In this document: piece by piece, positions 12,301 to 64,000 of the stretch | Position numbering within the stretch: the first letter of the stretch is position 1 | Layout: each line of letters begins with the position of its first letter | Assembly (NCBI GenBank): GCA_964036195.1 | Contig: OZ038456.1 | Span: forward strand, 7,192,001-7,256,000 | Direction of reading: 5' to 3' | Length of the DNA: 64,000 bases | From: Sphaerolaimus hirsutus | Lineage: Eukaryota; Nematoda; Chromadorea; Monhysterida; Sphaerolaimidae | Made by a program: the position numbers and the translations under genes | Notes under the pieces: model-generated | What the model was told of the DNA's origin: nothing | The model's database searches: none | Seen by the model: the letters and a program-made list of their open reading frames with translations, nothing else

Positions 12301-15300
12301 AGAGCGGAATTTAACGGTTCTAACTAGAAAATTTTTCAACTTAAGACATTAGTAGTGATGGAAAAATGCCAGCAAAAATAGCGCCATTTGCACCATGGCG
12401 CCATAAAAAATAATGGTCACATGGTCGTGTCAAAATTGTAAAACATCAACCTGCAAAGTTGCCCTGGATTTAAATATGGTAACTTTGTCAATTGTAGAGT
12501 TTGTCACTCGAAATTTGACAAGTCAGGCACTAAATCACATCAGTCGCTCAACATTCTCATTTGAAAAAAGTGAAATCTAGAATTTCGACTCAGGCTGTAC
12601 TTCCTGCCCCACGCCGCCGCAAAAGTTGCCCGAAAAGTTGCCAGCTCAAGGGCAGACAAAAAGTGCGAGAAAAGTGCGTCGAGCCACGGTGACAATTGTC
12701 GCGCTTGTGACAACTTACCTCATTTGCAACAGCGTCGATATTGTCATTAAAGTGACAGAGAGGTTTGACTATTTGAAGAAGATGTTTTTTCAGGTGCGTT
12801 TTTAAGTATTTATATGTGATCGTTGTGTTTCTTTTTAAATATTCCACTGCTAAGAAGTAAGTAGTTGCACTGTGCATAACTAGTATGCAGAAATAGTGTG
12901 CAGAACTAGTGATGCAAAAAACACCAGGACTTTGGCACCAAACGCCTTTTTTGACCCCTAGCGCAAGCGCCAATGTCACCACAGCAAAATGACGCCAAGC
13001 ACCAAAAGCGCCATGGCTTTGGCTTTGGCTTCTTACTTTGGCGCTAGCGCAATGGCGCTTTTACATAACTACTAGTGATGTAAAAGCGCCACGGCGCTTT
13101 TGGCGCTTGGCGCCATTTCCCTCTGGCGCCATTGGCGCTTGGAGCCAAAGTCATGGCGCTTTTTTACATCACTAATCACCACTCACCCACATAAGGTAGC
13201 ACCCTACAGCGCCCTACTCGCGCCCTATACTCAAAAAACACCCAAAATACCCTTTCCCATAGGATCCACAAGGCTACTCGACCGATTTGTACCGCCTATC
13301 GACAGATTGTGTCTCGATCCTTTTCGTGGTCAATTGCTGCAGTCGTTTGTTTGTGTACTGCGCCAGCGACCCGCAGATTAGAAGCGATGTCAAGGCTATT
13401 ATTAAGGGTGTTTGTTGCTGTTGCAGGTGGGTTTTTTGGGGCGGGGGGGGGGGGTTGAGAAACTTTTAAAGTGTAAAGTTAGGTGTAAAGTGGCATGTAA
13501 AGTGGCGTGCAAAATTCGTCAAAAAATGGTCAAGTGGCATAAGAAATGCATTAAAAAAATGTCAAATGGCAGGGAAAGTGTCAAAGGTTCAGTATAAAAA
13601 CCTCTTTACTTAAATTACATTTTGCATGACATTTGACACTTGACTTTACACTTTACAGGGTGCGGGATGGGCCCATGTTGCGTTTGTGTATAAATATGAA
13701 GTAATAGGTTTTGCGACTTCTCACATTTCACTTGACTTGACAACTTCACCCATCGCTTGACACTTGACAATGTTTATAATCTACCCCAGGTTTTCTTGCC
13801 CCACTTGGATGCGTGCCGGCGGCGTGCCTTCAAACAATTTGGTGAATCAAGACGATACGATATCGCAACAGCGCAGCAAAAGTTGGGTAGGTGGGGTGAG
13901 ATTTTGTCTGCGCTTTTGTTTCTTTTTTAAAAACGGCGAAATTTCCTCTCGAGGAAACACTCCATCATGACGTTATCGTTTACAAAATCAAAATCAAAAT
14001 CAAAGTCTCAAAAAGAAAAGTCGTTCCAGGAAAAACATTCATTGCTGGTACTTGCAGCATTCATTCATTCATTGCTGCAGTCTGTAAACTCATGTAATTT
14101 AGGTATTCAACTGTCCAACAGCAATAAAAAGATGTGTATACACTGCATACATATAATGTATCTGCTGTCGCTTCTCTAGGCTAATATTCTTTTCTGTATT
14201 GTATTATTTTCATCCACAGGGGACGTTATTCAAAAGGGGGGAGTTATTCGAGGGGGGTCTTATTTGAGGATTTGCGGTGCTTATAGAAACAAAGATTTGA
14301 AAAGTTACAGATGTTTGTAAGTAGGTATTTTCATAGATTTACCTTGAATGCATTCGAGTTTACTGGAGTGAGTTAAGCCGTCAACTGCAGTTGACAAACA
14401 CCTTATTCCAGTAACCTCAATCCCTGATTCAAAGGGGTGGTCATTCACAGTTGATGTATTAGTTCAAATGTAGAGTACAACCGACACTATGAAAAAATTG
14501 GCACAATTCCAGTCAAACTCAACAATCAACAAACTGAGCGTGCGAAACAGCGCCGACCAGCGCAACGTGAACAAAAAAGCCGGTGCGGGGGACTCGTTGC
14601 TAGTAAATGCGCACAATTCTATGGTAGATGGGTGCGGAAATTGCAGATATAAAGGGAGACACGGACGTTATAAGATGCCCACGCTGATGAGCCAGGTAAA
14701 TTGACAAGGAAACTAATAAGTGACAAGTAAATTTCTGAAAGAAAATACTATATGTTTGGATAATAATTGATTTGTCACTTGATTACTACTTACCACATTT
14801 CTTTGCACTTGCCCAGTTGTGGGATTTGCAATTGTCTATGCAAAATATCATACAAATTTGTCAAATTTTCTGCAAAATGTGAGAAGTTCAGTGATAAATA
14901 TTTCCATTTTTATTTTGATTGACACTTTGCATGAAATTTGACAATTTACATGACACTTGACAGTTGAGTGTGGGACTAAGTAAATACTGCCACCTGTATG
15001 ATGAGGTGCTAATTTGGCACTATGCCATATGGTATTTTAGTTATAGGTACAAATGACAAGTTAATTTTTCTGAATGAAATTACCTTACAGACACCTTGCA
15101 TTATTAAAGGTGGCGCAAAAAAACTTGTTGGCTCCCATAAAACTGCAAGCAATTAAAACAAAATTTTTTCGACCCAGGAAATGTCTTTGGACAGCGGCAA
15201 TCGATCACATTGCAATGAAAGCATCGAAGGCAGCGATGTGATTTTAAATCAAGAAACTCCAGATGGACATGTTATACAGGTGAATTTTGTTGTTGTTTTT

Positions 15301-16191
15301 TTGTTTAAAGTAAACTGACCGACCACAATGGAATCTACCGTATCCCACTTGAATAAAAAATGAGTATTATTTATTCTTCCAATTTTTATTTTCAATACAT
15401 TGCTCTCTCTATATTTATGTATGGGTGAATTTGGAGCTTACTTTTACGCGTACTTCACGCACCAATATGTCTCGTATTTATTTAATTTTTTATTTTGAAC
15501 TCTTTTCCTTGTACGCATTTACTTGTTACTGGTATAAGTTATTCGTTCTTACTCTCTGTCAACTGGAGTTGACAAACATCTGATTCCAGTAAAATCGAAT
15601 TTCATCCAGGTTGATTTATGAGTTTGCTAGATTTTCAGCTTACTGACTGTCAACTAGTGTGCGCTTTGTCATCACTGTTTAGAATGGCGCGCCATTTTCA
15701 TTGCGCCAAACAAACACCAATCCATCACCATTTACATTAAAACATACTATAAATACGCGCAGACGCACAGTCTATACGAGTGGCAGTGCTGCGAGCAGGT
15801 GCCAGTCCCACACCCTGTAAAATGCCCTGTAAAATGTCAAATATCATGCAAACTGTCAAAAGTCATGTAAAATGCCCTGCAAAATGGCAACCAACTTGGC
15901 ACTTTGCAGGGCATTTTACATGACTTTTGACACTTTGCATGACATTTGACATTTTACAGGGCATTTTACAGGGTCTGGGAGTGCCCCCAGAACAACGGGC
16001 ATTTGACCCGAAACGCCAAAATAAATGGCGCTGGCGCCATGGCGCACACTCAGTGCAATAATGGCGCCATGAATGAGAGCAATTACGACAATGTTACTCC
16101 GAGGCAAAATCAAAGTTTGACCACTTTTGGCGCGAGTGATGTAGTTAATGACTCGCGGCAATGCATGGAATCGCTTATTGTAGAGTTGTGA
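9335..16191 (+). CDS. Class A seven-transmembrane receptor, FMRFamide/neuropeptide-receptor-like (5' exon missing)
   Basis: Eleven exons: 9335-9453, 10235-10404, 11132-11288, 11911-12161, 12594-12793, 13263-13426, 13790-13886, 14474-14695, 15178-15279, 15763-15798, 15991-16191. Each has AG/GT borders. Together they give 1719 nt in one frame (572 residues plus TGA), and codon phase agrees at every junction. TM1 is LVLVLYVGSAIAMVALVNN. TM2-TM3 contain GPTLYLGILALLDVFIALMY and LYHLWHGYTMPVLALSRI. The DRY-box equivalent is ERY in CATAERYLLISP. TM4 is RRVIIAIVLLVAVF. ECL2 carries DCPPFEQYDW. TM6 is VTIVALVTTYLICNSVDIV, without a CWxP motif. TM7-helix 8 reads LFVVNCCSRLFVYCASDPQI in place of NPxxY. 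A long serine/asparagine-rich tail follows. It should be a plasma-membrane peptide receptor coupling to G proteins; the ligand is inferred from the family style only. The start exon was not found. The last intron is a MITE. Confidence 0.85.
10068..10230. repeat. Minisatellite TTACCCCCCTCAA in receptor intron 1
   Basis: About twelve imperfect copies of a 12-14 bp unit (AATTACCCCCCTC) run up to the acceptor of the second receptor exon. They act as an extended polypyrimidine tract. Copy number is likely to vary between alleles. Confidence 0.75.
12907..13174. mobile_element. Two adjacent GCGCC hAT-like MITEs in a receptor intron
   Basis: The first copy spans 12907-13071 (TAGTGATGC ... ACATAACTA) and the second 13073-13174 (TAGTGATG ... 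CATCACTA). Both consist of GCGCCAAGCGCCAA-like tracts. They lie in the intron between the TM6 and TM7 exons and have no coding capacity of their own. A degraded third copy starts near 12356 in the preceding intron. Confidence 0.7.
13478..13668. repeat. Fragment of TCCCAG-type palindromic MITE
   Basis: Mirrored phrases AAAGTGTAAAGT and ACTTTACACTTTACAGGG, with GTGTCAAATGG and GACATTTGACAC, identify the family seen intact at 15799-15987. The ends are eroded. It lies within the receptor intron after the TM7 exon. Confidence 0.55.
14812..14985. repeat. Degenerate TCCCAG-type palindromic MITE in receptor intron
   Basis: CCAGTTGTGGGATTTGCAATTG on the left and GACACTTGACAGTTGAGTG on the right flank partly mirrored CATACAAATTTGTCAAA and TGACACTTTGCATGAAATT phrases. 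The termini are diverged and no clear triplet duplication remains. Confidence 0.45.
15799..15987 (+). mobile_element. Palindromic MITE forming the last intron of the receptor gene (candidate introner)
   Basis: The element begins GTGCCAGTCCCACACCCTG and ends GGGTCTGGGAGTGCCCC. Its arms AAAATGTCAAATATCATGC and CATGACATTTGACATTTT are mirrored. It is bordered by a 3-bp duplication CAG (15796-15798 and 15988-15990). With GT as its first two bases and the second CAG as acceptor, removal of 15799-15990 joins GAG CAG to AAC AAC without changing the frame. The distal part continues to the stop codon in the receptor frame. Other copies at 25792, 37501 and 54627 also show CAG or CTG duplications. Whether splicing happens is inference. 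Confidence 0.75.
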
Positions 16192-20006: not shown

Positions 20007-20482
20007 TGCTACTGACGACTGTCCTTGTTGTGTTTAGCTAGCGCCATACCAAAGTCCTCAATGAAAACACAATGCTGATTGTTAGATGAAATAAATAAGA
20101 GAAATTAGGTTTAAATATTTATACATTTTAGCTTTTGAAAATTAAAAATGACTGGCATTTTGGCTGTTTCTCGTTTTTGTGATGGGTGCTGGGACACAAG
20201 TTTGGAAGCGTTCGGGCTGGAACATGTTGAAGCAACAACGCTCTGCGGGGCGGCAGTATTTAAGCAAACATCACACGCAACCAGAGAAAACATTCCTCTG
20301 CTTTCCTGTTTCTCCAGTATATGATTACGCGCTTGTAATTCAGGCATATTTATGCACTGAGAGTGGGTCTGGGATCGGCTTCTAAGGGTACTCTGGGGCC
20401 AGTCAGAGTATCCGGCATGCCCATGACTCCACTATTAAAGGTGGGAACCCTATTTAGGGTACCGGCCCGCCGATAAAAGCCC

Positions 20483-23318
20483 ATGGCCCAAAAGAACTGG
20501 CACTTTCTCTTTCCTGCTCCTGGACAAGGCCATCCAGGATGCAGTACTCGGCCTGCTACAAACCTTCCACACCCTAACCTTCACCACTTTGCAACGCGCA
20601 AATGCACGGTTTTCAATGATGGTAGAACCATCTGTGTTAAATCGAGCCCTAGTTCCAGTCAATTTCTCACCACATGCACCTGTGGCAACTGCACCTATTG
20701 CCAGTACATTAACAGTGAAATTTATACAAATGAAAATAGCATGGGATACATATATTGCTCAGAATTAGATACTCGTGCTGATTGCAATTCTACTAATGTA
20801 GTCTATTTAATTACCTGCAATGACTGCAAATTACATTATGTCGGAGAAACATGTAGAAAATTTAAATTGCGCATTGGTGAGCACATTAGAAGCTTCAAAA
20901 AAGGTAAAATGGAAACAGAACTGGTTAAACATTTCACATTACCTGGACATACACCTAAATTTAAAATCTTGGGAATTTATGATAAAGCTAGTTTGCTAAA
21001 TGCTGAAAAAGAATGGATACTCTTATTAAATACGGCCTACCCCTTTGGTTTAAACACTAAAATCCCTGGTTATGGCACTATCAAAAAAGGTAAAATGCCT
21101 AAGTTTGCAAACAGTCCATATTTTTGTCGCCCTGTACCTAGAAATCATAGTGATCGAATCCGCACCAAAAAACGCAAACGCAAAAGATGGTCGACCGATG
21201 AAATATGTGATAAAATTTTGTCATTAAACTCTGCGGATTTTGACTATGGTTCAGTTATAAAATTCTTGAGAACATGCAAATATCAAGATTTACAAAGAAG
21301 AATTAGACATGTACATAGGCGACTTTGTGACAATTCTACTGATATGGCCATGGCCGTTCTTGGATTTCTTACCAGTAAAGGTGATCTGGATAAAAAACAA
21401 CCAAATGATTTATGTAAAAAACACTTATTTACATGTAAATTTCCGGGTGCTACAATGGACTGTATAAGACCAGCAAAATTCCTCAACAGCAAAAAATTTT
21501 GTGATAGAATATCAAGTGACTGGCTTAAACTTAATAAAATTATAGTCTGTTTTACTTATGAAAAACCCCTTTCCCACACAATATGTAATCATAACAAGGT
21601 TTTCAAATCAATCACTGAAAGGGAGCTAAAATTGATTCTGGAAAAGAGATGTGATTGTGAAAATTCAAAATTTATGGATTTGCACCATAAGCACATTGTT
21701 ACTGGTAACTTGGCCGTTTTGAATGACAGCTATCTAGAAAATGCCTTGAAATTAGGGGCTAAGTACAGATGTACTATGGATAACAGCGTTTCAGGGTGTA
21801 AAAATATGATCGTAGATTTACTTCAAAAAATAAGTATTAAATTTAATATTCAAATTACGAATGATATTATGGAAGATCTGGATAATTTCATTTCCAAAAG
21901 AACCAAGAACTGGATAGATAACTTCCCTGATATGATTGATGTTAATTACATCAAAAAAGCTTGTCAGAAACCACATGATAAATATCTAATAGCACCAGCC
22001 GACAAAGCGACGAGCAATCTGATTATAATATGCAAAAAATTTGCGGCTCAGGCAATGTGTGCTGAACTGGGTGTTTTTTGGAATAATGGTGTCATGCAAT
22101 GCAGTGGGAATGCAACTTATACCCCCGTATCAGATTAAGAAAATGACATCATCAATAAACATAATAATCTGCTCAGAAATCTAGATATTTCAATTAATAA
22201 CAAATGGCAAAGTCTGCCCAGACTTTTTCCTATACCTAAAATGCACAAAAACCCTGTTAAATTCAGATTTATAAGTGGAGGAAGTACAGCTCCAATTAAA
22301 CCAGCAGCCATCATTTTGCATCGTATTTTAAGACATTTTAAGGCACATATGAAAAACTACTGCTCAACGTTCACTCAACGTACTGGCCATGTGAAAGTTC
22401 TATTGAAATCCAGGAATTTGTGGAAAATGCTAGCAAAGGTACAGATTCAGTTCGATGTTTTAGTGGTGACTTTTCCACCTTGTACCCAAATATGTGCCAC
22501 AAAGAGATTCATGTATTCATCAAATAGCCGACAGATGTTTTTGCAATGCGGGCAAAAAATATATTGTTGTTGGATGGCAAAATTTGTGGTACAGTGATAG
22601 TATACACAAAAAACTGCTTACATTGGATAAGGAAGGTGTTATGAACCTACTTAAAACTGTACTTTCGGAATCATACTTAGTGTTTGCTAATCAACTATTC
22701 AGACAAACATCTGGTCTACCTATGGGCTGTGAATCTGCACCTAGTATTGCATGCACCAGCTTAATGTGGCGGGAAATAGAATGGGTAATGCACAACAGAG
22801 ATAAACAGAGAAAAATGTTTAGATGTTTCAGGTACATAGATGACTTATTGATATGTTATAAGAATGGGTGTGACATAGATGTTCAACAAATAGTTGGTGA
22901 AATATACCCTAGTAACCTTCCGCTTAATCGAACAGACCGTGATGGAACATCTACTGACTTCCTCGACATGACCATTGACTTTAAAAATTTGAATTGGAAA
23001 TTATATGATAAGAGACTTGATTTTAACTTCAAATGTATCACCGCAACTAATTTTAGAAGTGCTCAGGCACGTTGTGTTAAAAAGAGTACGTTTTTTGGGC
23101 ACTGGCTAAGAGCTCTAAGACTAAGCTCTAACTGGGATAACTTCGTATGTGGCATCAAACCATGTATTGAAGGGCATCAAAACAATGAATATTCTAATGA
23201 CATTTTATTTGAAGTTGCCCTGAAATGCACTACACGATATAGAAGCTTATTATGGAAATATAACATGAATTTAGATTGTGATACACTTCAAACAATTAGA
23301 AATTTAATTAGTAGATAA
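20483..23318 (+). mobile_element. Penelope-like retroelement with N-terminal GIY-YIG nuclease (permuted type), decayed
   Basis: The first ORF (20483-22138, 551 codons) has a cysteine cluster near residue 65 (CTCGNCTYC). A GIY-YIG domain follows at about residues 105-190 (VVYLITC, YVGET, R-x3-EH, then an E/N near 175-183). A linker leads into the start of the reverse transcriptase (APADKATSN). An in-frame TAA interrupts it at 22136. The RT continues in the same frame, then at least two frameshifts between about 22390 and 22540 lead to a third ORF ending at 23318. That ORF contains GLPMGCESAPSIAC, the catalytic FRYIDDLL and FLDMTI. Classical Penelope elements carry GIY-YIG at the C-terminus. 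The N-terminal order fits the permuted lineage (Hydra/Naiad/Chlamys-type). Inactive as it stands. Confidence 0.85.
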
Positions 23319-24092: not shown

Positions 24093-26032
24093 TTATTGGG
24101 TGGCCGCAGCGCTGGCGTCACTGACAATTAGCCACTTTCCATCCACCTTCTTGCAGACCGTCACAAACCTGTGACGCTATCAATTGGGAATTGGTATGCT
24201 GCATTTCGTCACTGTTGTCTGTTGCATCTGATCGATTCACAAATACGTGAATCGTATTTGCTTGAATAATACCCCCTTTAATTACCCACTCCCCCCTCTC
24301 TGGAAAATTTCCAGCCACCAGCCTTTACAAGATGAGTGAGGAAAAATATACCACCCTTGAATAATTCTCTCTTAAGGCATTTGATCAATTTGGACGATCA
24401 AATTAAACAAAAATGGTATGAGTTTGTGTTCATTAAGCATATGTTGTGGAAGACTTGATATACCCAAACGTGCTTGAAAATTGTTACGAAATAACAATTC
24501 AACAAAAACAAAATGAATGACGAATAATTCCCCCCTCGAATAGTTCCAGCTCAAAAATGTCAGACGTAAAAATGATTTCCCCGGGGGAATTATTCAAGCA
24601 AATACAGAAAAAAAACCCAGATTTGTCCGTGTTTTGAGTTCCAAACGTGCCACCCACCAAAAAGTTTGATTCTTCCCATCATAAGGCATGTCATACTCTC
24701 CCCTGGCCAGCATGAGTCCATTGCCCAAATCGACATAATCATCATTTTTGGGTGCCCACGTCAAGGTGGCCGGGTCTGGGCCCTTTGACACCATTGCCTG
24801 CATTCCAGCCGCAATTGCTGTGTGTTGGGCAGTTTTGTTAGTGATGTAAAAGCCCTAAATGTCAAGAAAACATGTCTTTGTAGGTTGAATATTAATAGCA
24901 CCAGAGAAGTGATGTGAAAAGCGCCAGGACTGTGTGTGTCGCCAAGCGCCAAAAGCGCCATGGCTCTTTTTGCTTTGGCGCCATGGCGCTTTTACATCAC
25001 TATACCAGAGCCTCCAGCAGAGTTGTTAAGAGTGCTAAACTTTTTTCAAAGTATACATAAATGTAAAGTATTTATTTTTTTACTCACCCCTTGAATCAGA
25101 AAATGTAAGATAAATTTCTTTACTTTTACTCATGAGTAAATGTGAGTAAATATTCGTCCCCCAATGTAATGTGAGTATTTTTGAGGAATCTCACCCCAAT
25201 TTTCACTCAAACTCATTAATTTTCATATTTTGTTGTTGCATATTTTAAGCAAATTTTGGCTAGATATGGGCTTATATATTCATTTTCGACTTTTTTGCCT
25301 ATTTCTAGCATATTCCCTAATTTTATTTCCTTATATGCCTTCAAAAATCGATATAAAAGACTCAAAAAACATTCTCTGAAATACGTTTTCTGTACTTGTG
25401 TACTCTCAAAAAGTATACGTAAAAGCGAGTACTGGAACTTTATCTGAAGGAAAAATTTATGTTTTTACTCTGTATTCGAGTATACATATTTATCGAGTAA
25501 AAGTACATTCATTTTAACAACTATGGCCTCGAGGGATTCCAACACAGCAGACCTTGCTTACATTGACCACATTTTAAACAGTGCTGGTTGTGAGAAGAAA
25601 CATGCAAAGAGTCAATCACAAATTCACAGGTTATGCATTTATGCATGAGTTTAGGTTCTTGTGTTCCTTCTTGTGGGGGTACACATTAGCAGCCTACCTG
25701 CCCTGCCCCTGAAAATATTACATCCCTGCCACATCAGGGTGCCATCCTCCACGTAAAGAGCTGCAACTGCGTTGTAATCTTTGGCGATCAGGGGGCACTC
25801 CCAGATCCTGTAAAAAGCACTGTAAAATGTCAAATGTCATGCAAAGTGTCAAAAGTCATGGAAAATGCCCTGAAAATGGCAACTCGGTTGTCATTTTGCA
25901 TGGCATTTTCCATGATTTTTGACACTTTAAATGAGATTTGACATTTTACAGAGCATTTTACAGGGTCTGGGATTGGCACCAGGCCAGCTTGGAACTTTGA
26001 CACAACATGTTCAGTGTAATCTTCCTTGAGAC
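24093..26032 (-). CDS. SnoaL/NTF2-like (DUF4440-type) small protein, exon split by a MITE
   Basis: Minus-strand exons: 26032-25980 (DYTEHVVSKFQAGL), then 25788-25698 (IAKDYNAVAALYVEDGTLMW) after a MITE, then 24817-24658 and 24168-24093. Phases agree at the AG/GT borders (CAG|GTAGG; CACAG|CAATT; TTTTTG|GTGGGT; CACAG|GTTTG). The C-terminal exon gives FVTVCKKVDGKWLIVSDAS and TAA. The order of motifs matches small cystatin-like-fold NTF2/SnoaL proteins: AGxxxxxDxxxVAxLYxxDxTLM, a GxGL...RGEYxM strand and VxxCKKVDGKWLIV. Such proteins are about 130 residues long, and here about 126 are visible. Enzymatic role unknown; probably cytosolic. The start codon exon was not found. MITE 25792-25979 sits inside coding sequence, so the allele may be disrupted. 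Confidence 0.8.
24250..24609. repeat. Eroded CCGTATT-family element in the last intron of the SnoaL-like gene
   Basis: CGTATTTGCTTGAATAATACCCCC on the left is mirrored by GAATTATTCAAGCAAATAC on the right. CCCCCTCGAATAGTTCC-type phrases lie between them. It falls wholly between exons 24168-24093 and 24817-24658. Confidence 0.6.
24839..25002. mobile_element. GCGCC hAT-like MITE in SnoaL-like gene intron
   Basis: An outer TAGTGATGTAAAAGCCC start is followed by an inner copy beginning AAGTGATGTGAAAAGCGCC at 24907 and ending ACATCACTA. The inner copy is flanked by CACCAGAG (24899-24906) and TACCAGAG (25003-25010), an 8-bp duplication with one mismatch. Confidence 0.65.
25018..25525. mobile_element. 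hAT-like element CAGAGTTGTTAA ... TTAACAACTATG
   Basis: The ends are inverted repeats. The flanks GCCTCCAG (25010-25017) and GCCTCGAG (25526-25533) are an 8-bp duplication with one change. The interior consists of GAGTAAA/TACTC phrases. It lies in the SnoaL-like gene intron and has no transposase. Confidence 0.75.
25792..25979 (-). mobile_element. Palindromic MITE inserted in a coding exon of the SnoaL-like gene
   Basis: On the gene strand it begins GTGCCAATCCCAGACCCTG and ends GATCTGGGAGTGCCCC, bordered by CTG on each side (25982-25980 and 25791-25789). Removing the element and one CTG joins GGC CTG to ATC GCC and restores the SnoaL N-terminal motif. The element is 188 bp, close in size and sequence to the 189-bp copy at 15799. 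With CTG as the duplicated triplet the right border lacks AG. The nearest AG inside the element (GGGAG|TGCCCC) would leave three extra codons in frame. Confidence 0.8.
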
Positions 26033-37500: not shown

Positions 37501-37617
37501 GTGCAAATCCCAGACCCTGTAAAATGCCCTGTAAAATGTCAAATGTCATGCAAAGTGTCAAAAAGTCACGTAAAATTCCCTGCGAAATGGCAACTCGGCA
37601 ATTCTGGGATTGCCCCC
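37501..37617 (+). mobile_element. Internally deleted TCCCAG-type MITE with CTG duplication
   Basis: It starts GTGCAAATCCCAGACCCTG and ends TTCTGGGATTGCCCC, with CTG at 37498-37500 and 37618-37620. Only the left arm and the extreme right end remain (117 bp). It supports the CAG/CTG target rule for this family. The ORF that runs through it is coincidental. Confidence 0.75.
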
Positions 37618-44053: not shown

Positions 44054-46696
44054 TCACGACGCTTCCGAGGCGCACTTCTGCGCATGCGAAAGTTTCCACA
44101 CAACTCTATGCGGCACCGAAAATGTTTCGCCATCATGATTTCGCAATAAAAGTGTGGAACCGGATACACTAATGACAACAAATGGGCCTGTGAATTTTGG
44201 CATATTCTTTTCAGACGAAATACTCTTGACCATCACACGATCATCCGGCGAAAATACGGTAGCATGCGCCGAATCAAAATGCCGCTTGTAAATTGATTTA
44301 TTTTTGTCACTCTGCGTTTGGGCCATTTGCCTGGCCACCTGTGGATCTATTTGTCTTGCCGCCGCAAAAAACAAGTTCCAGTGCGGCAAATGCCCAAATA
44401 CCAAATAAAAAGGACAGCATCCTGTAACCCTATTCATGGCTAAATTGCACCGCAAAGTAGCCATTGGCAGCAGATCCCACCATTTTTGTAATGGAAATTC
44501 TCGTGAGCAAAATAACAAAGCTTCGCGTAATGAGCGATTTGCTCGCTCCACTAAACCGTTAGCGGCCGGATTACAGGGCAATGTAGGGCTATGGGTAACG
44601 CCAAAGGTATCGCACAGGGTTCGTAGTTCGGAATTAATAAACTCGGTGCCTCTATCTGTGATTATAACGCGTGGCGCACCACAAAACATGAATAAGTGAT
44701 TATAAATGGCCCTTGTCACAGATGTTGCAGTCAACGATCTCACAACAGATGTAATCATATATCTAGACAAAGCATCGATTGCAACCAAAATTTTCTTCTG
44801 AGAATTCTTATCGTAATACATTACATCGATGTGGAAAATATCAAATGGCTGTGACGGTGTGACTACATCTCCCAGGGGACCAGAATTCACTCTATGAGAT
44901 TTGACAGTCATACACTCGGCGCATTGTTGGCAGAATTCCAAAATGTCACTTTTCATGTCTGGCCAAGCAAAATACTGACATAATAAATCCAAAGTTCTGG
45001 CTTGACCGCCATGACTGGCGTACACACCTAAATGTGCCTGGATCAAGCATGCATGTTGCCAGGCGCGAGGAGGCCAAATAGACAAATGACGTGAGGATGT
45101 TGGTGCGCGAAAATATAGGATTTCATCAATAAGATAAGCGTCTGCAATAGACTCTGGTTCTTTTTCCAATTTCTCAATGATCTTAAGCAACACACTATCG
45201 GATCTCTGCACCGACTTCCAATTAATTTCGGCGCGCGTGGATAACAAAGGTTCCGCTCTCAAACATGCAGATATTGGCATTTTGCCAGTAGTAGCGTGTT
45301 GGCCATGGACTAATTGTGATGGTTTGCATAATTCATCTTCACCGAATTCAGTTTCTGAAATTGGGTTACGCGAAAGTGCGTCCGCTACAGAATTTTGGAC
45401 GCCCGGACGATGGACGAAAGAAGTAATTTTGTCCTGAAGGAAGATAGCCCAGCGTTCCAATTTAGAATGATGCGGGCTGCGTAACACTTGTTGGATTCCA
45501 GAATTGTCCGTGATGACGGTGACTTTTTGTCCTTCCAAATAATCCGCAAACCGGCGTACAGCCCAACAAATGCACAAAGCCTCTAAAGAAGCAGCAGAGT
45601 ATGACGTATGTGGATGTGTGAGTTTCTTTGAAATATATGAAATTGGATGTAATTGGCCATCATCCCCATACTGGGACAAAACTGCTCCCAGCCCCACGCC
45701 GCTGGCGTCAGTCTCGAGGACGAATCCTCTAGGATCATCAAAAACTGGATGAGCTAGAACTGGTGTAGTGGATAGTAAATGTTTTAGTGTATCCCAGGCG
45801 CAAAGCATGTCCTCTGTCCATTCAAAAGGTGTCGAACCATTTTTTGGAACATGGCCTTTCAAAACGTGGTATAACGGTGCGGCTATCCGGCTGAAATTGG
45901 GAATAAAATGAGAATAGTAAATACATTTTCCGAGGAAACGCCGCAAATCTTGTTTAGTGTGAACTTTCGGTTGGTCAATGACCGCTCTGTAACGCGCAGG
46001 TGCCGGAGAAATCCCTTTTTCTGAGATCTGGTGTCCAAGATATTTCAATTCACTGGCAAAGAATTTGCATTTGGCCGGTTGAATTTTGAGATTGGCCCAC
46101 CTTAACCTTTCGAAAAGTTGTTTCAAATGCACAAAATGCTCATCAACGGTGAAACTACTGCACAAAATGTCGTCGATGTAAGCCCGAACCCACGGACTTG
46201 CAGGGTCTGAATTCAAACCCGCTAATAACATGTTCATAAGCCTCTGGAAAGAAGCTCCGGCATTCACAGTACCAAATGGCATTCTCGTATATCTGAATTG
46301 CCCGAGACTACAGACAAAAGATGTTCGCTCGCGCGTTTCCTCGTCGGCAAGCGGGACATTATAATATCCATGGCGGATATCGAGGGCTGAGAAAATTTTC
46401 CGACCCGAGAATTCGGACAGCAACTCGCCAATGCGAGGTAGCGGGTATGAGTCGATTTTTGTTATTAAATTCACCAATTTAAAATCGACGCAAAATCTGA
46501 AATCCGAGGTGCCCTTTGGGGCGATAGTGATGGGTGAGGCCCAAGCGCCGTTTGACGGCTCTATGATGCCTTCTCGCAGCATCGAAGCAATCGTCTTGTG
46601 AATAAAAGCCCTTTTATGTCGTGCCTCATATCGAACATCGACGGCATTTTGCCAGTAGTAGCGTGTTGGCCATGGACTAATTGTGATGGTTTGCAT
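44054..46696 (-). CDS. Gypsy pol polyprotein fragment: reverse transcriptase, RNase H, integrase
   Basis: The frame is 880 codons. RT motifs appear in order: FRFCVDFKLVN, FSALDIRHGYY, MPFGTVNAGASFQ, the catalytic RAYIDDIL, and YLGHQISEKGI. RNase H shows FVLETDASGVGLGAVLSQ, SLEALCICWAV and ITDNSGIQ. Integrase has an H-H-C-C finger (HLGVYASHGG ... CQQCAECM) and the D, D, E residues in FHIDVMYY, IITDRGTEF and GLVERANRSL, then a C-terminal GPFVVISVSGSTLLLRNHD region. The first 17 residues come from the duplicated pol patch read in another frame, so the RT lacks its natural N-terminus and no protease is encoded. It overlaps gag by about 20 bases. Confidence 0.9.
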   Translation of the reverse strand: MQTITISPWPTRYYWQNAVDVRYEARHKRAFIHKTIASMLREGIIEPSNGAWASPITIAPKGTSDFRFCVDFKLVNLITKIDSYPLPRIGELLSEFSGRKIFSALDIRHGYYNVPLADEETRERTSFVCSLGQFRYTRMPFGTVNAGASFQRLMNMLLAGLNSDPASPWVRAYIDDILCSSFTVDEHFVHLKQLFERLRWANLKIQPAKCKFFASELKYLGHQISEKGISPAPARYRAVIDQPKVHTKQDLRRFLGKCIYYSHFIPNFSRIAAPLYHVLKGHVPKNGSTPFEWTEDMLCAWDTLKHLLSTTPVLAHPVFDDPRGFVLETDASGVGLGAVLSQYGDDGQLHPISYISKKLTHPHTSYSAASLEALCICWAVRRFADYLEGQKVTVITDNSGIQQVLRSPHHSKLERWAIFLQDKITSFVHRPGVQNSVADALSRNPISETEFGEDELCKPSQLVHGQHATTGKMPISACLRAEPLLSTRAEINWKSVQRSDSVLLKIIEKLEKEPESIADAYLIDEILYFRAPTSSRHLSIWPPRAWQHACLIQAHLGVYASHGGQARTLDLLCQYFAWPDMKSDILEFCQQCAECMTVKSHRVNSGPLGDVVTPSQPFDIFHIDVMYYDKNSQKKILVAIDALSRYMITSVVRSLTATSVTRAIYNHLFMFCGAPRVIITDRGTEFINSELRTLCDTFGVTHSPTLPCNPAANGLVERANRSLREALLFCSREFPLQKWWDLLPMATLRCNLAMNRVTGCCPFYLVFGHLPHWNLFFAAARQIDPQVARQMAQTQSDKNKSIYKRHFDSAHATVFSPDDRVMVKSISSEKNMPKFTGPFVVISVSGSTLLLRNHDGETFSVPHRVVWKLSHAQKCASEAS

Positions 46697-47915
46697 AATT
46701 CATCTTATGATCGTATGTTTGATCAGGTTGGAACATGGTCGTGTACACCTTATAGCCTTCACCCGACAATTTGGTGGCGAAAATATCTGTCCAAAAATGC
46801 TGCAACAATGACTGGTCGGGAATAGAATTGGCCGTCGACAACACGTGACGTTTCCATTCCGAGAACTTTATGACGTCAGACTTTCCCTTGAAAACCGGTA
46901 TTTTGTCCATTAAATGTGATTTTACGATCATCCATTGATGTAAAACATCGAGACTAGTTTTCTTTGACATGGCCTGTGGGGCCTTCGAAAAATCATTGAG
47001 GAACCAAGGGTCCTGTGGGGGGTCGATACCGGGATCCGGCAACACATTTTCAGCAATTGTGATTTCAGCGTCATCAGCTTTTAACTTGTCATCAACAGAA
47101 ACAGTAACCTCTTCACTTTTTACCATTTTTTTGACATTCCCCTCTCCAGAATTGTCAACTTCAGCCGTCAACTGGTTTGTCAACTCACCAGATGTAACCT
47201 CGGCACCCACATGAATGCCGGCATTTTGCATGCGCAAATCTTTCATTTCCTGGACAGCGATTTCAAATAGGCGCTCGACGCGGGAAAGTCGAGCGTCAAA
47301 ACCAGCGACGGGATTGTCAAGAGTTTTTGGCTGGTCATCCGAAGAAGGCACTAAAGGTGTCTCCATCACAAAATGGTTGCCGGACAGATGATCCACAAAA
47401 TCCACTTCCTCCAAATATCTACCCGGCGGAAAACGCGAAGAATCGACCAAAAATAAATTCCGCGGTCGTGGTGCCAAAATATCCACAGAGGGAAAAAATG
47501 CGGAAACCAGGACATCGGCTACCGCATGAGATGCTTTGAACTGTTCCAGACTATCAATGGCTGCAAAACTCGGCGGAGGAGAATTCATGAATGGTGCCGG
47601 AATTGCACAACCCGACTGATTAATCCTGACAGGTGGCAGCACAAATTGTGGTAGGGGTACTGACCGAGAAATTTGGCCGCCGGATGAACGAGGGTGGACT
47701 GGGACGACATCTCCCAAAACTTCGGGCGCTGGCTGCCAAAAATCCCCATGAGGTGACAAAGGAGCAGAGAAAATCCTTTGCGTGGCTCTTTGCAAGGCAC
47801 TGGCCTGAAACTGACGCTCCTGAGCCGAGTCGGGATGAAAACGAGAGACCGGGTTCACCGGGTGTGAACGCGTGTGTCGCCGCGGCACTTCTCTATCGGA
47901 ACTTGATTGAGACAT
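46677..47915 (-). CDS. Gypsy gag polyprotein, C-terminally truncated
   Basis: The likely start is the ATG at 47915 (MSQSSSDREVPRRHTRSHPV); an upstream GTG-initiated extension reaches the LTR but is less likely. The N-terminal half is proline-rich. The C-terminal half contains a capsid-like segment (DKIPVFKGKSDVIKFSEWK). Translation ends eight residues into the duplicated pol patch. No CCHC zinc knuckle is present, which Gypsy gags normally have downstream. The product would be a capsid-type protein without a nucleocapsid domain. Confidence 0.7.
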   Translation of the reverse strand: MSQSSSDREVPRRHTRSHPVNPVSRFHPDSAQERQFQASALQRATQRIFSAPLSPHGDFWQPAPEVLGDVVPVHPRSSGGQISRSVPLPQFVLPPVRINQSGCAIPAPFMNSPPPSFAAIDSLEQFKASHAVADVLVSAFFPSVDILAPRPRNLFLVDSSRFPPGRYLEEVDFVDHLSGNHFVMETPLVPSSDDQPKTLDNPVAGFDARLSRVERLFEIAVQEMKDLRMQNAGIHVGAEVTSGELTNQLTAEVDNSGEGNVKKMVKSEEVTVSVDDKLKADDAEITIAENVLPDPGIDPPQDPWFLNDFSKAPQAMSKKTSLDVLHQWMIVKSHLMDKIPVFKGKSDVIKFSEWKRHVLSTANSIPDQSLLQHFWTDIFATKLSGEGYKVYTTMFQPDQTYDHKMNYANHHN

Positions 47916-52252: not shown

Positions 52253-52645
52253 GGGGCAGTCCCAAGCTCTGTAAAGTGTAAAGTAAAGTGTCAAATGTAA
52301 AGTCAAGTGTCAAGTCAAATGTCAAATGTAAAGTAAAGTGTTAAGTCAAATGTCAAATGTAAAGTCAAGTGTCAAGTCAAATGTCAAATGTAAAGTCAAG
52401 TGTCAAGTCAAATGTCAAATGTAAAGTAAAGTGTCAAATGTAAAGTAAAGTGTCAATTGTGTATCCAAATCTTATGTTTTTGTATCCAAATCTTATGTCG
52501 AAAAATAAGATTTGGATACAAAAATATAAGATTTGGATACGAAAAAAAAAGATTTGGATACACAATTGACACTTAACTTTACATTTGACACCTTACTTTA
52601 CATTTGACATTTGACTTGACACTTTACAGGGCTTGGGATTGCCAC
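52253..52645. mobile_element. TCCCAG-type MITE, long subfamily
   Basis: It starts GGGGCAGTCCCAAGCTCTG and ends GGGCTTGGGATTGCCAC. The arms contain five or six tandem AAATGTAAAGTCAAGTGTC units and the core TGTATCCAAATCTTATG in both orientations. The flanking triplets are CTG (left) and CAG (right), one base apart. Confidence 0.7.
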
Positions 52646-62422: not shown

Positions 62423-63358
62423 TATAGGTACCCACTACTCAGAGGCTTGCAAAAACTGACACCCCAATGGGGACCTCCCTCCAAATGGCACCCCCTGGGG
62501 AACCTCCCAAAAGTGGCACCCCCTGGGAACCGCCCAAAAATGGGACCCCCTAGGGCCCCACAAATATGGCACCCCCTGAGGACCACCAAAAAATGGCACC
62601 CCTTAGGGACCCCCCAAAAATGGCACCCCCTTGGGACCCCCCAAAAATAGCACCTCCTGGGGACCCCCCCAAACATGGCACCCCCTAGGAACCCCCACAA
62701 AAATGGCACCCCCTGGGGACCCACCCAAAGTTGGCTCCCCCTGGGGACTCTACAAAACCCAACTGAAGGTTGGAGAGAATCCTGCTATAGGTACCCACTT
62801 CTCAGAGGCTTGCAAAAACTGACACCCCAATGGGGACCCCCCTCCAAATGGCACCCCCCAGGGAACCCCCCAAAAGTGGCACCCCCTGGGAACCGCCCAA
62901 AAATGGGACCCCCTAGGGCCCCAGAAATATGGCACCCCCTGAGGACCACCAAAAAATGGCACCCCTTAGGGACCCCCCAAAAATGGCACCCCCTTGGGAC
63001 CCCCCAAAAATAGCACCCCCTGGGGACCCCCAAACATGGCACCCCCTAGGAACCCCCACAAAAATGGCACCCCCTGGGGACCCACCCAAAGTTGGCTCCC
63101 CCTGGGGACTCTCCAAAAATGGCACCCCCCTGGGGACCCCCCCCCCCCCAAAATGGCACCCCCTATGGACCCCCCGCAAAAAAAATATAGCACCCCCTGA
63201 GGACCACCAAAAAATGGCACCCCTGGGGACCACCCAAAAAATGGCATCCCATGTGGACCCCCTTGAAATGGCACCCCCATATGTACCTCCAGAAAATGGC
63301 ACCCCCTGGAGACACCCCAAAAATGGCACCCCATGGGGACCCCCTCTAAATCCTGTAA
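62423..63358. repeat. Minisatellite ATGGCACCCCCTGGGGACC with an internal tandem duplication
   Basis: The array resembles 40536-41345. A block starting at CCCAACTGAAGGTTGGAG (62396) is repeated from 62757, so the lead-in sequence and about 300 bp of array occur twice. Reading frames with KWHPLGTPQ-type repeats run through it but have no start context. Confidence 0.75.
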
Positions 63359-63499
63359 ACACAGCCCCTAGTTTGGAAACTCCTGTAAACTCAGCCCCTA
63401 ATTTGGAAAATGGTATGAATATTTCAAAAAATCACTATCATCAATCCAGAAATGCATCAATTCACAATTTTCAATTTTTTAGCCCCAGGGGTTAGACTT

Positions 63500-64000
63500 A
63501 AAAAGTTATGGTAATGTAGAGTAGAAATGGAGTGCACATTTCAAATCACTGCAATAAAAAACCCACAAATGCATCATTTCACAAATTGAAAGTTTTTGTG
63601 CCCAGGGGTTCATTATCAGGGTTTTAGTAATGTGGTGTCAAAATGGAGTGCATATTTGAAATCGCTACAATCAGAAACCCACAAACACATCATTTTATGA
63701 TTTGAAAATTTTTGGCCCTGGGGGTTCATTTTCAGGGTTATGGTAATGTAGTGTCAAAATGAAGTGCATATTTCAAATCAAGGCAATCAAAAAGCCACAA
63801 ATGCATCATTTCACAATTTCTAATTTATTAGCCCCATGGGTTCAATTTAAGGCTTACAGTAATGTAGAGTTGAAATTGAGTCATTACAAATCAGTGCAAT
63901 TAGAAACCTGCAAAATGCATCATTTCACAATAAGAAATTTTTGGGTCTAGGGGTTCAATTTCAGGGTTTTAGTAATGTAGTGTCAAAATGGAGTGCATAT
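63500..64000. repeat. 116-bp satellite array running out of the window
   Basis: The marker AGTGCA(C/T)ATTT recurs at 63531, 63647 and 63763, giving a 116-bp period. Each unit has CCCACAAA(C/T)(G/A)CATCATTT and a GGGGTTCA(A/T)T phrase. The units match the sequence entering the gap at 41488. Confidence 0.8.

Follow-up and report, generated by a model that had tools for sequence, protein, structure and literature searches.

A hairpin-forming transposon family that very probably acts as an introner in an animal genome, with both CAG and CTG targets in coding sequence

A receptor-like gene in a 64,000-nt window of a 348-Mb animal genome (the window being the whole stretch of DNA analysed, contig C9, positions 7192001-7256000) carries a palindromic element in the place of an intron, which raises the question of whether insertion of such elements creates introns in this genome and, if so, at which target sites. 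Direct reading of positions 15796-15990 bears out the sequence-only reading, which had described a CAG-flanked, 189-bp palindrome opening with GT. The element (15799-15987, forward strand) starts GTGCCAG and ends GTGCCCC; its ends are unlike (GTGCCA at the 5' end, TGCCCC at the 3' end), the left starting GTGCCAGTCCCA whereas the right, read inward, starts GGGGCACTCCCA. The two arms of the hairpin, 15798-15890 and 15896-15988, show 91% complementarity and stand 5 nt apart, and the element folded as RNA has a predicted energy of -133.9 kcal/mol; Rfam at gathering thresholds gives no match in the window. On the same strand, the left copy of the target duplication (CAG, 15796-15798) would remain in the mRNA, the GT borne by the element (15799-15800) is the proposed 5' splice site, and the right copy (CAG, 15988-15990) is the proposed 3' splice site, which would leave with the intron.

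Removal of 15799-15990 restores the reading frame, as had also been claimed: a candidate 36-nt exon abutting the element (15763-15798, 12 codons) is joined in phase 0 to a candidate terminal coding exon (15991-16191), open to a TGA. Upstream on the forward strand, two further candidate coding exons of the receptor tail were recognized by eye, both in phase 0: an open frame of 61 codons (14513-14695) ending CAG before GTAAAT, and one of 34 codons (15178-15279) ending CAG before GTGAAT. The start of the 36-nt exon depends on a single AG before 15763 and is not fixed, since the frame is open for 46 codons further upstream. The gene resembles seven-helix receptors of nematodes: a protein search gave seven matches, all from nematodes, six at 34-39% identity and one at 26%, covering at most 69% of the hand-joined model, in which Pfam found no family. 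Three of these matches were inspected and have short tails that by eye are unlike the focal tail. Because none of the seven matches provides a homologue for the tail exons on either side of the element, the focal copy is a weaker witness than other loci. A codon model trained on 20 kinase exons, in which six frames are scored on each side of an element, nevertheless gives the focal junction a best frame of +6.0 against -11.2 for the next, with left and right best frames in agreement, the left flank alone scoring only +0.9. These scores, the agreement of frames and the recurrence of the same pattern at many family loci indicate that the junction is more than chance. Given that position, ends, duplication and frame all fit the rule of the family, splicing of the focal copy at 15798/15991 is predicted with good confidence.

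The element belongs to a large family. Exact 27-base end patterns, counted over the whole 348-Mb genome, find the left end 1161 times after CAG and 978 times after CTG (at least 2139 in total), and the right end 945 times before CAG and 645 times before CTG; reversed-pattern controls find none. The preference for CAG or CTG (CWG) targets proposed from the focal sequence thus holds genome-wide. CAG is more enriched at the right end of the element than at the left (Fisher p = 0.0017), an excess that we can attribute only to selection for a 3' AG. In a similarity search in which 40 of 2159 candidates were scored, the better strand shows about 90-95% identity to the focal copy. Of the 30 best-matching loci 29 could be parsed, and in these the orientation that places GT at the left gives a better fit than its reverse. 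The unlike ends are therefore a feature of the family, which carries GT at one end only. Parsed copies measure 116-327 bp and are, as expected of miniature inverted-repeat transposable elements (MITEs), short, numerous, built of inverted repeats and flanked by a target duplication. In a sample of 45 copies not selected by similarity, the duplications are CTG..CTG (17), CAG..CAG (14), CTG..CAG (6), CAG..CTG (1) and other (7), and the right side lacks CWG in 7 of the 45.

The window holds a second copy on the reverse strand (25792-25979), whose GT end lies at 25979 with CTG beside it in its own orientation. Diverged, related element ends with adjoining CTG or CAG occur at 37501, 54627, 61644 and 52253-52645, the last in a member of about 390 bp that overlaps 19- and 31-bp tandem repeats. 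Other tandem arrays, with units of 27 bp and 116 bp, occupy 62450-63344 and 63446-64000. Two further regions of the window resemble mobile elements: a long pol frame on the reverse strand (44057-46699) with reverse transcriptase, RNase H and integrase domains, which we take to be Ty3/gypsy-like, and forward-strand frames (20477-23315) that match GIY-YIG and, under the cut-off, a reverse transcriptase, possibly a Penelope-like element. Elsewhere in the genome, one fetched locus (L091, contig C762) looks mitochondrial, with ND2- and ND1-like frames on one strand, while the other carries COX1 and an ATP6-like frame; it is readable with the invertebrate code, the neighbours of COX1 being named by eye. 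Of at least 120 matches listed in a COX1 search, the best is a contig at 89%, and those with a species name are insects at 64-67%.

Whether family members lie in coding sequence was examined at 90 loci, which yield 72 parsed, distinct copies: 27 recovered through their resemblance to the focal copy and the 45 unselected ones, the latter from the first 30 listed places on contig C1 for each of two patterns and so representing one end of one contig. Eleven loci have no parsable right end (L032, L035, L036, L041, L042, L060, L063, L069, L077, L082, L083) and seven are duplicates (L011, L016, L017, L038, L047, L058, L059). The best codon frames to the left and right of the element agree in 35 of the 72 copies, where 12 are expected (p = 4e-10). 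Copies with a total score above zero, a threshold of our choosing with an uncalibrated null, are here called coding-like; there are 27, with left and right frames agreeing in 21 and differing in 6. In 26 of the 27 (14 CTG..CTG, 9 CAG..CAG and 3 CTG..CAG; p = 4e-7) the GT end comes first along the coding strand, as anticipated by the proposal of a single productive orientation, and the sense frame of the lone antisense call, L003, encodes leucine-rich repeats. Among the unselected copies 15 of 45 are coding-like, all 15 sense, comprising 11 of 25 with CTG at the left and 4 of 20 with CAG; extrapolated to the 2139 exact left ends, this proportion suggests that several hundred copies may lie in coding exons. 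By score, 45 of the 72 copies overall and 10 of the 24 CTG..CTG copies are non-coding; in these 45 (scores of zero or below) the best frame is sense in 30 and antisense in 15, and the two sides agree in 14. Left unspliced, the element would bring a stop into 25 of the 26 sense coding-like copies, and its length is not divisible by three in 11 of the 26. The context of the target is nearly palindromic: where CWG flanks the element at either end, the preceding base is C in 15 of 27 coding-like and 22 of 36 remaining copies, and the following base is G in 20 of 27 and 22 of 36, respectively. Insertion preference alone therefore does not account for the strand bias.

Conserved domains continue across the insertion point. 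Peptides chosen from the frame scores, not blindly, were searched against Pfam (E <= 0.01) for the sense strand of 40 of the 72 copies and the antisense strand of 20; 12 of the 40 sense peptides contain a domain that exceeds the curated cut-off and spans the junction, whereas none of the 20 antisense peptides has a match over the cut-off. Five of the twelve are CAG..CAG copies (L008, CTE_SPB4; L015, kinase; L045, Oscp1; L012, BLTP1; L022, SLC12, 7e-35), six are CTG..CTG copies (L019, E1_dh; L028, PAS; L018, NUP210; L068, Oscp1, 4e-17; L030, Neur_chan_memb, 1e-14; L075, CHGN, 5e-16) and one is CTG..CAG (L074, CHGN). Alignments to PDB proteins are ungapped at the junction for L030 (nAChR beta-2, 7e-14), L019 (BCKDHA, 1e-18), L007 (NPC1-like transporter and Patched, 3e-6), L074 (chondroitin sulfate synthase 2, 2e-8) and the TTG..CTG copy L113 (NEK7, 2e-26), and a match to chondroitin sulfate synthase 2 crosses the junction of L075 (1e-12). 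L113 had been fetched, with L112, for a kinase match near a listed element; at L112, where the kinase match lies beside a CTG right end, no element could be parsed. Position, strand and the order along the profile suggest that two genes each harbour a pair of elements: an OSCP1 gene (C1:3592974 and C1:3592139) with L045 (CAG) and L068 (CTG), covering profile positions 1-50 and then 48-89, and a CHGN gene (C1:5420034 and C1:5421078) with L074 (CTG..CAG) and L075 (CTG..CTG), covering 312-401 and then 410-512. Domains that end at the junction (L024, Ion_trans), begin there (L078, CBS) or whose best stretch does not cross it (L003, leucine-rich repeats) were not counted. Below the Pfam cut-off are L085 (zf-C2H2_7) and L005 (UDPGT); the matches to HalD (L086), nec1 (L070) and Sigma70_r4_2 (L002, antisense), likewise below it, were taken for chance, and junction peptides that we read as tetraspanin-, Ly6- or zinc-finger-like have nothing over the cut-off and were not counted.

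These results support, at the level of the family, the suggestion that the element is an introner: orientation in coding-like copies is sense-only, the three-base duplication keeps the frame, and domains continue across the insertion point. Many similar copies lie at different positions in genes, and the ends of the element are the predicted ends of the intron, with removal keeping the coding frame (35 of 72 by frames, 12 of 40 by domains). We consider it very probable that the element is a non-autonomous, hairpin-forming DNA transposon (MITE) acting as an introner. The narrower proposal, that introns are created at CAG sites, is sustained for CAG at family level; it does not describe the whole family, in that, within the unselected sample, insertions on the CTG side make up at least as many of the coding-like copies, and a boundary AG is missing from most of them.

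The question thus becomes how a CTG copy could be spliced. Direct reading shows that the exact boundaries open to a CTG duplication are limited to CT-CC, TG-CC, GG-CT and GT-TG. Among coding-like copies, sense orientation is no less strict for CTG than for CAG, which implies that the GT end matters and points to splicing at a TG acceptor. It is also possible, though we give it considerably less weight, that only the CAG copies are spliced introners and that exonic CTG copies either are spliced at an AG close by or sit in broken or dying alleles. At nine homology-supported CTG..CTG or TTG..CTG loci (L005 being included on its match under the cut-off), we searched for an in-frame AG between 70 nt upstream and 45 nt downstream of the boundary, with the GT of the element as donor. 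Two of them, L028 and L030, have such an AG, whose use would add 9 nt; moreover, of eleven ordinary introns adjoining element-bearing exons that were inspected by eye, the eight that are legible (beside L005, L015, L018, L019, L028, L030, L068 and L075) all end AG, and in human, according to the consulted part of one study, TG acceptors occur only with a nearby partner AG (PMC2374985). In family elements TTTTACAG sits 19 nt before the boundary; it would shift the frame if used. Against a nearby AG as the general explanation, the other seven loci (L005, L007, L018, L019, L068, L075, L113) lack any in-frame AG whose use would remove fewer than 18 nt or add fewer than 45 nt, and L005 has none in the scanned range. 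Against broken genes, which would be indifferent to orientation, all 14 coding-like CTG..CTG copies are sense, and the TTG in the left copy of L113 is synonymous with CTG. Some CTG copies could nonetheless be recent disruptions of dying genes. On balance we favour, with some reserve, the reading that CTG and CAG targets both become working introns within one animal transposon family. A large share of its new introns would then be constitutive GT-TG introns at first, to be converted to GT-AG when a single T mutates to A in the intronic copy of the target duplication. Such a change would fit the CAG excess at the right end as well as the three coding-like CTG..CAG copies (L025, L074, L085).

Three further readings concern the focal copy or the family as a whole. 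The focal copy might lie within an older intron spliced from 15279 to 15991, with the 36-nt stretch skipped and the CAG of the element serving merely as acceptor: the exon at 15178-15279, being in phase 0, would join 15991 in frame, the 36-nt exon hangs on one AG, and the tail is without a homologue in hand. We regard this as unlikely in view of the agreement and clear separation of codon frames at the focal flanks, notwithstanding the low score of the left flank, and of a CAG duplication that matches the family pattern of insertion into exons. A non-spliceosomal, hairpin-dependent removal from DNA or RNA, as discussed for introns of euglenids and Amoebophrya, could draw on the full-length hairpin and its folding energy, and the consulted part of one source describes hairpin introners with non-GT-AG ends in Amoebophrya (PMC7789003); the hairpin, however, is identical in both orientations, yet coding-like copies are sense-only, which argues for recognition of GT and makes such removal very improbable. 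Least credible of all is an ordinary MITE near genes with coincidentally open frames: GC-rich flanks do yield long chance open frames on both strands, but the junction-crossing domain matches, with E-values down to 7e-35 and confined to sense peptides, refute coincidence at family level.

Returning to the introner reading, we infer splicing, the use of TG and a later ripening of the 3' splice site from the arrangement of the sequences, as follows. The element would insert into CWG (CAG or CTG) with duplication of the three bases; GT would come from its 5' end, and the 3' splice site from the copy of CWG at the opposite end. Where the element lies with its GT end towards the 5' side of the coding strand, the spliceosome would take out the element with one CWG, leaving the mRNA unchanged; a CAG target would give a GT-AG intron and a CTG target a tolerated GT-TG intron, which a T-to-A change in the right, intronic copy would turn into GT-AG. 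Insertions in the reverse orientation would offer no GT, stay unspliced and be purged from exons.

Parts of this scheme have counterparts in known systems, as described in the sections of the cited papers that we consulted. In Chrysochromulina, too, the introner supplies GT and the insertion site the 3' splice site, although there the duplications are of 4 bp and terminal inverted repeats are lacking, whereas here a full-length palindrome in an animal makes 3-bp CWG duplications and apparently uses CAG and CTG alike (PMC9860276); the same source reports introners from two animal groups. GT-TG splice sites are reported for the IE-B and IE-D introners of the green alga Micromonas, with 25 and 6 members, respectively, of very variable length (PMC3879977), whereas here one family appears to yield both GT-AG and GT-TG introns depending on the target. 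Our literature searches, outside whose coverage many journals lie, found no GT-TG introners in animals. The hairpin introners of the dinoflagellate Amoebophrya likewise have inverted repeats that draw the exon ends together and short direct repeats, with non-canonical and very varied ends, in contrast to the GT kept upstream in the coding-like copies here (PMC7789003). Fritillaria is also an animal with relaxed 3' splice sites, its non-canonical introns having AC or AT ends, rather than TG, and its U2AF subunits being duplicated (PMC13326754). As to the mobilizer, the CWG duplication fits NuwaI of the PHIS superfamily, which makes CWG target duplications and occurs mainly in animals (PMC4482050); the consulted part of that source does not mention introns. 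A mobilizer of this kind would carry a DDE (PHIS) transposase between terminal repeats that match those of the element. The transposase domain DDE_Tnp_4 is abundant in the genome (at least 163 matches, with 150 of 306 candidates scored) in a nearly uniform family apparently with an intron; the 4.5 kb around one copy (L114) contain no ends matching the element.

Intron gain is hard to watch, and this one genome holds both proposed versions of the splice site together with intermediates that have CTG at the left and CAG at the right. The birth and the repair of a splice site are thereby directly testable in an animal, and if TG acceptors work here without a partner AG, this would bear on how strictly animal spliceosomes need AG.
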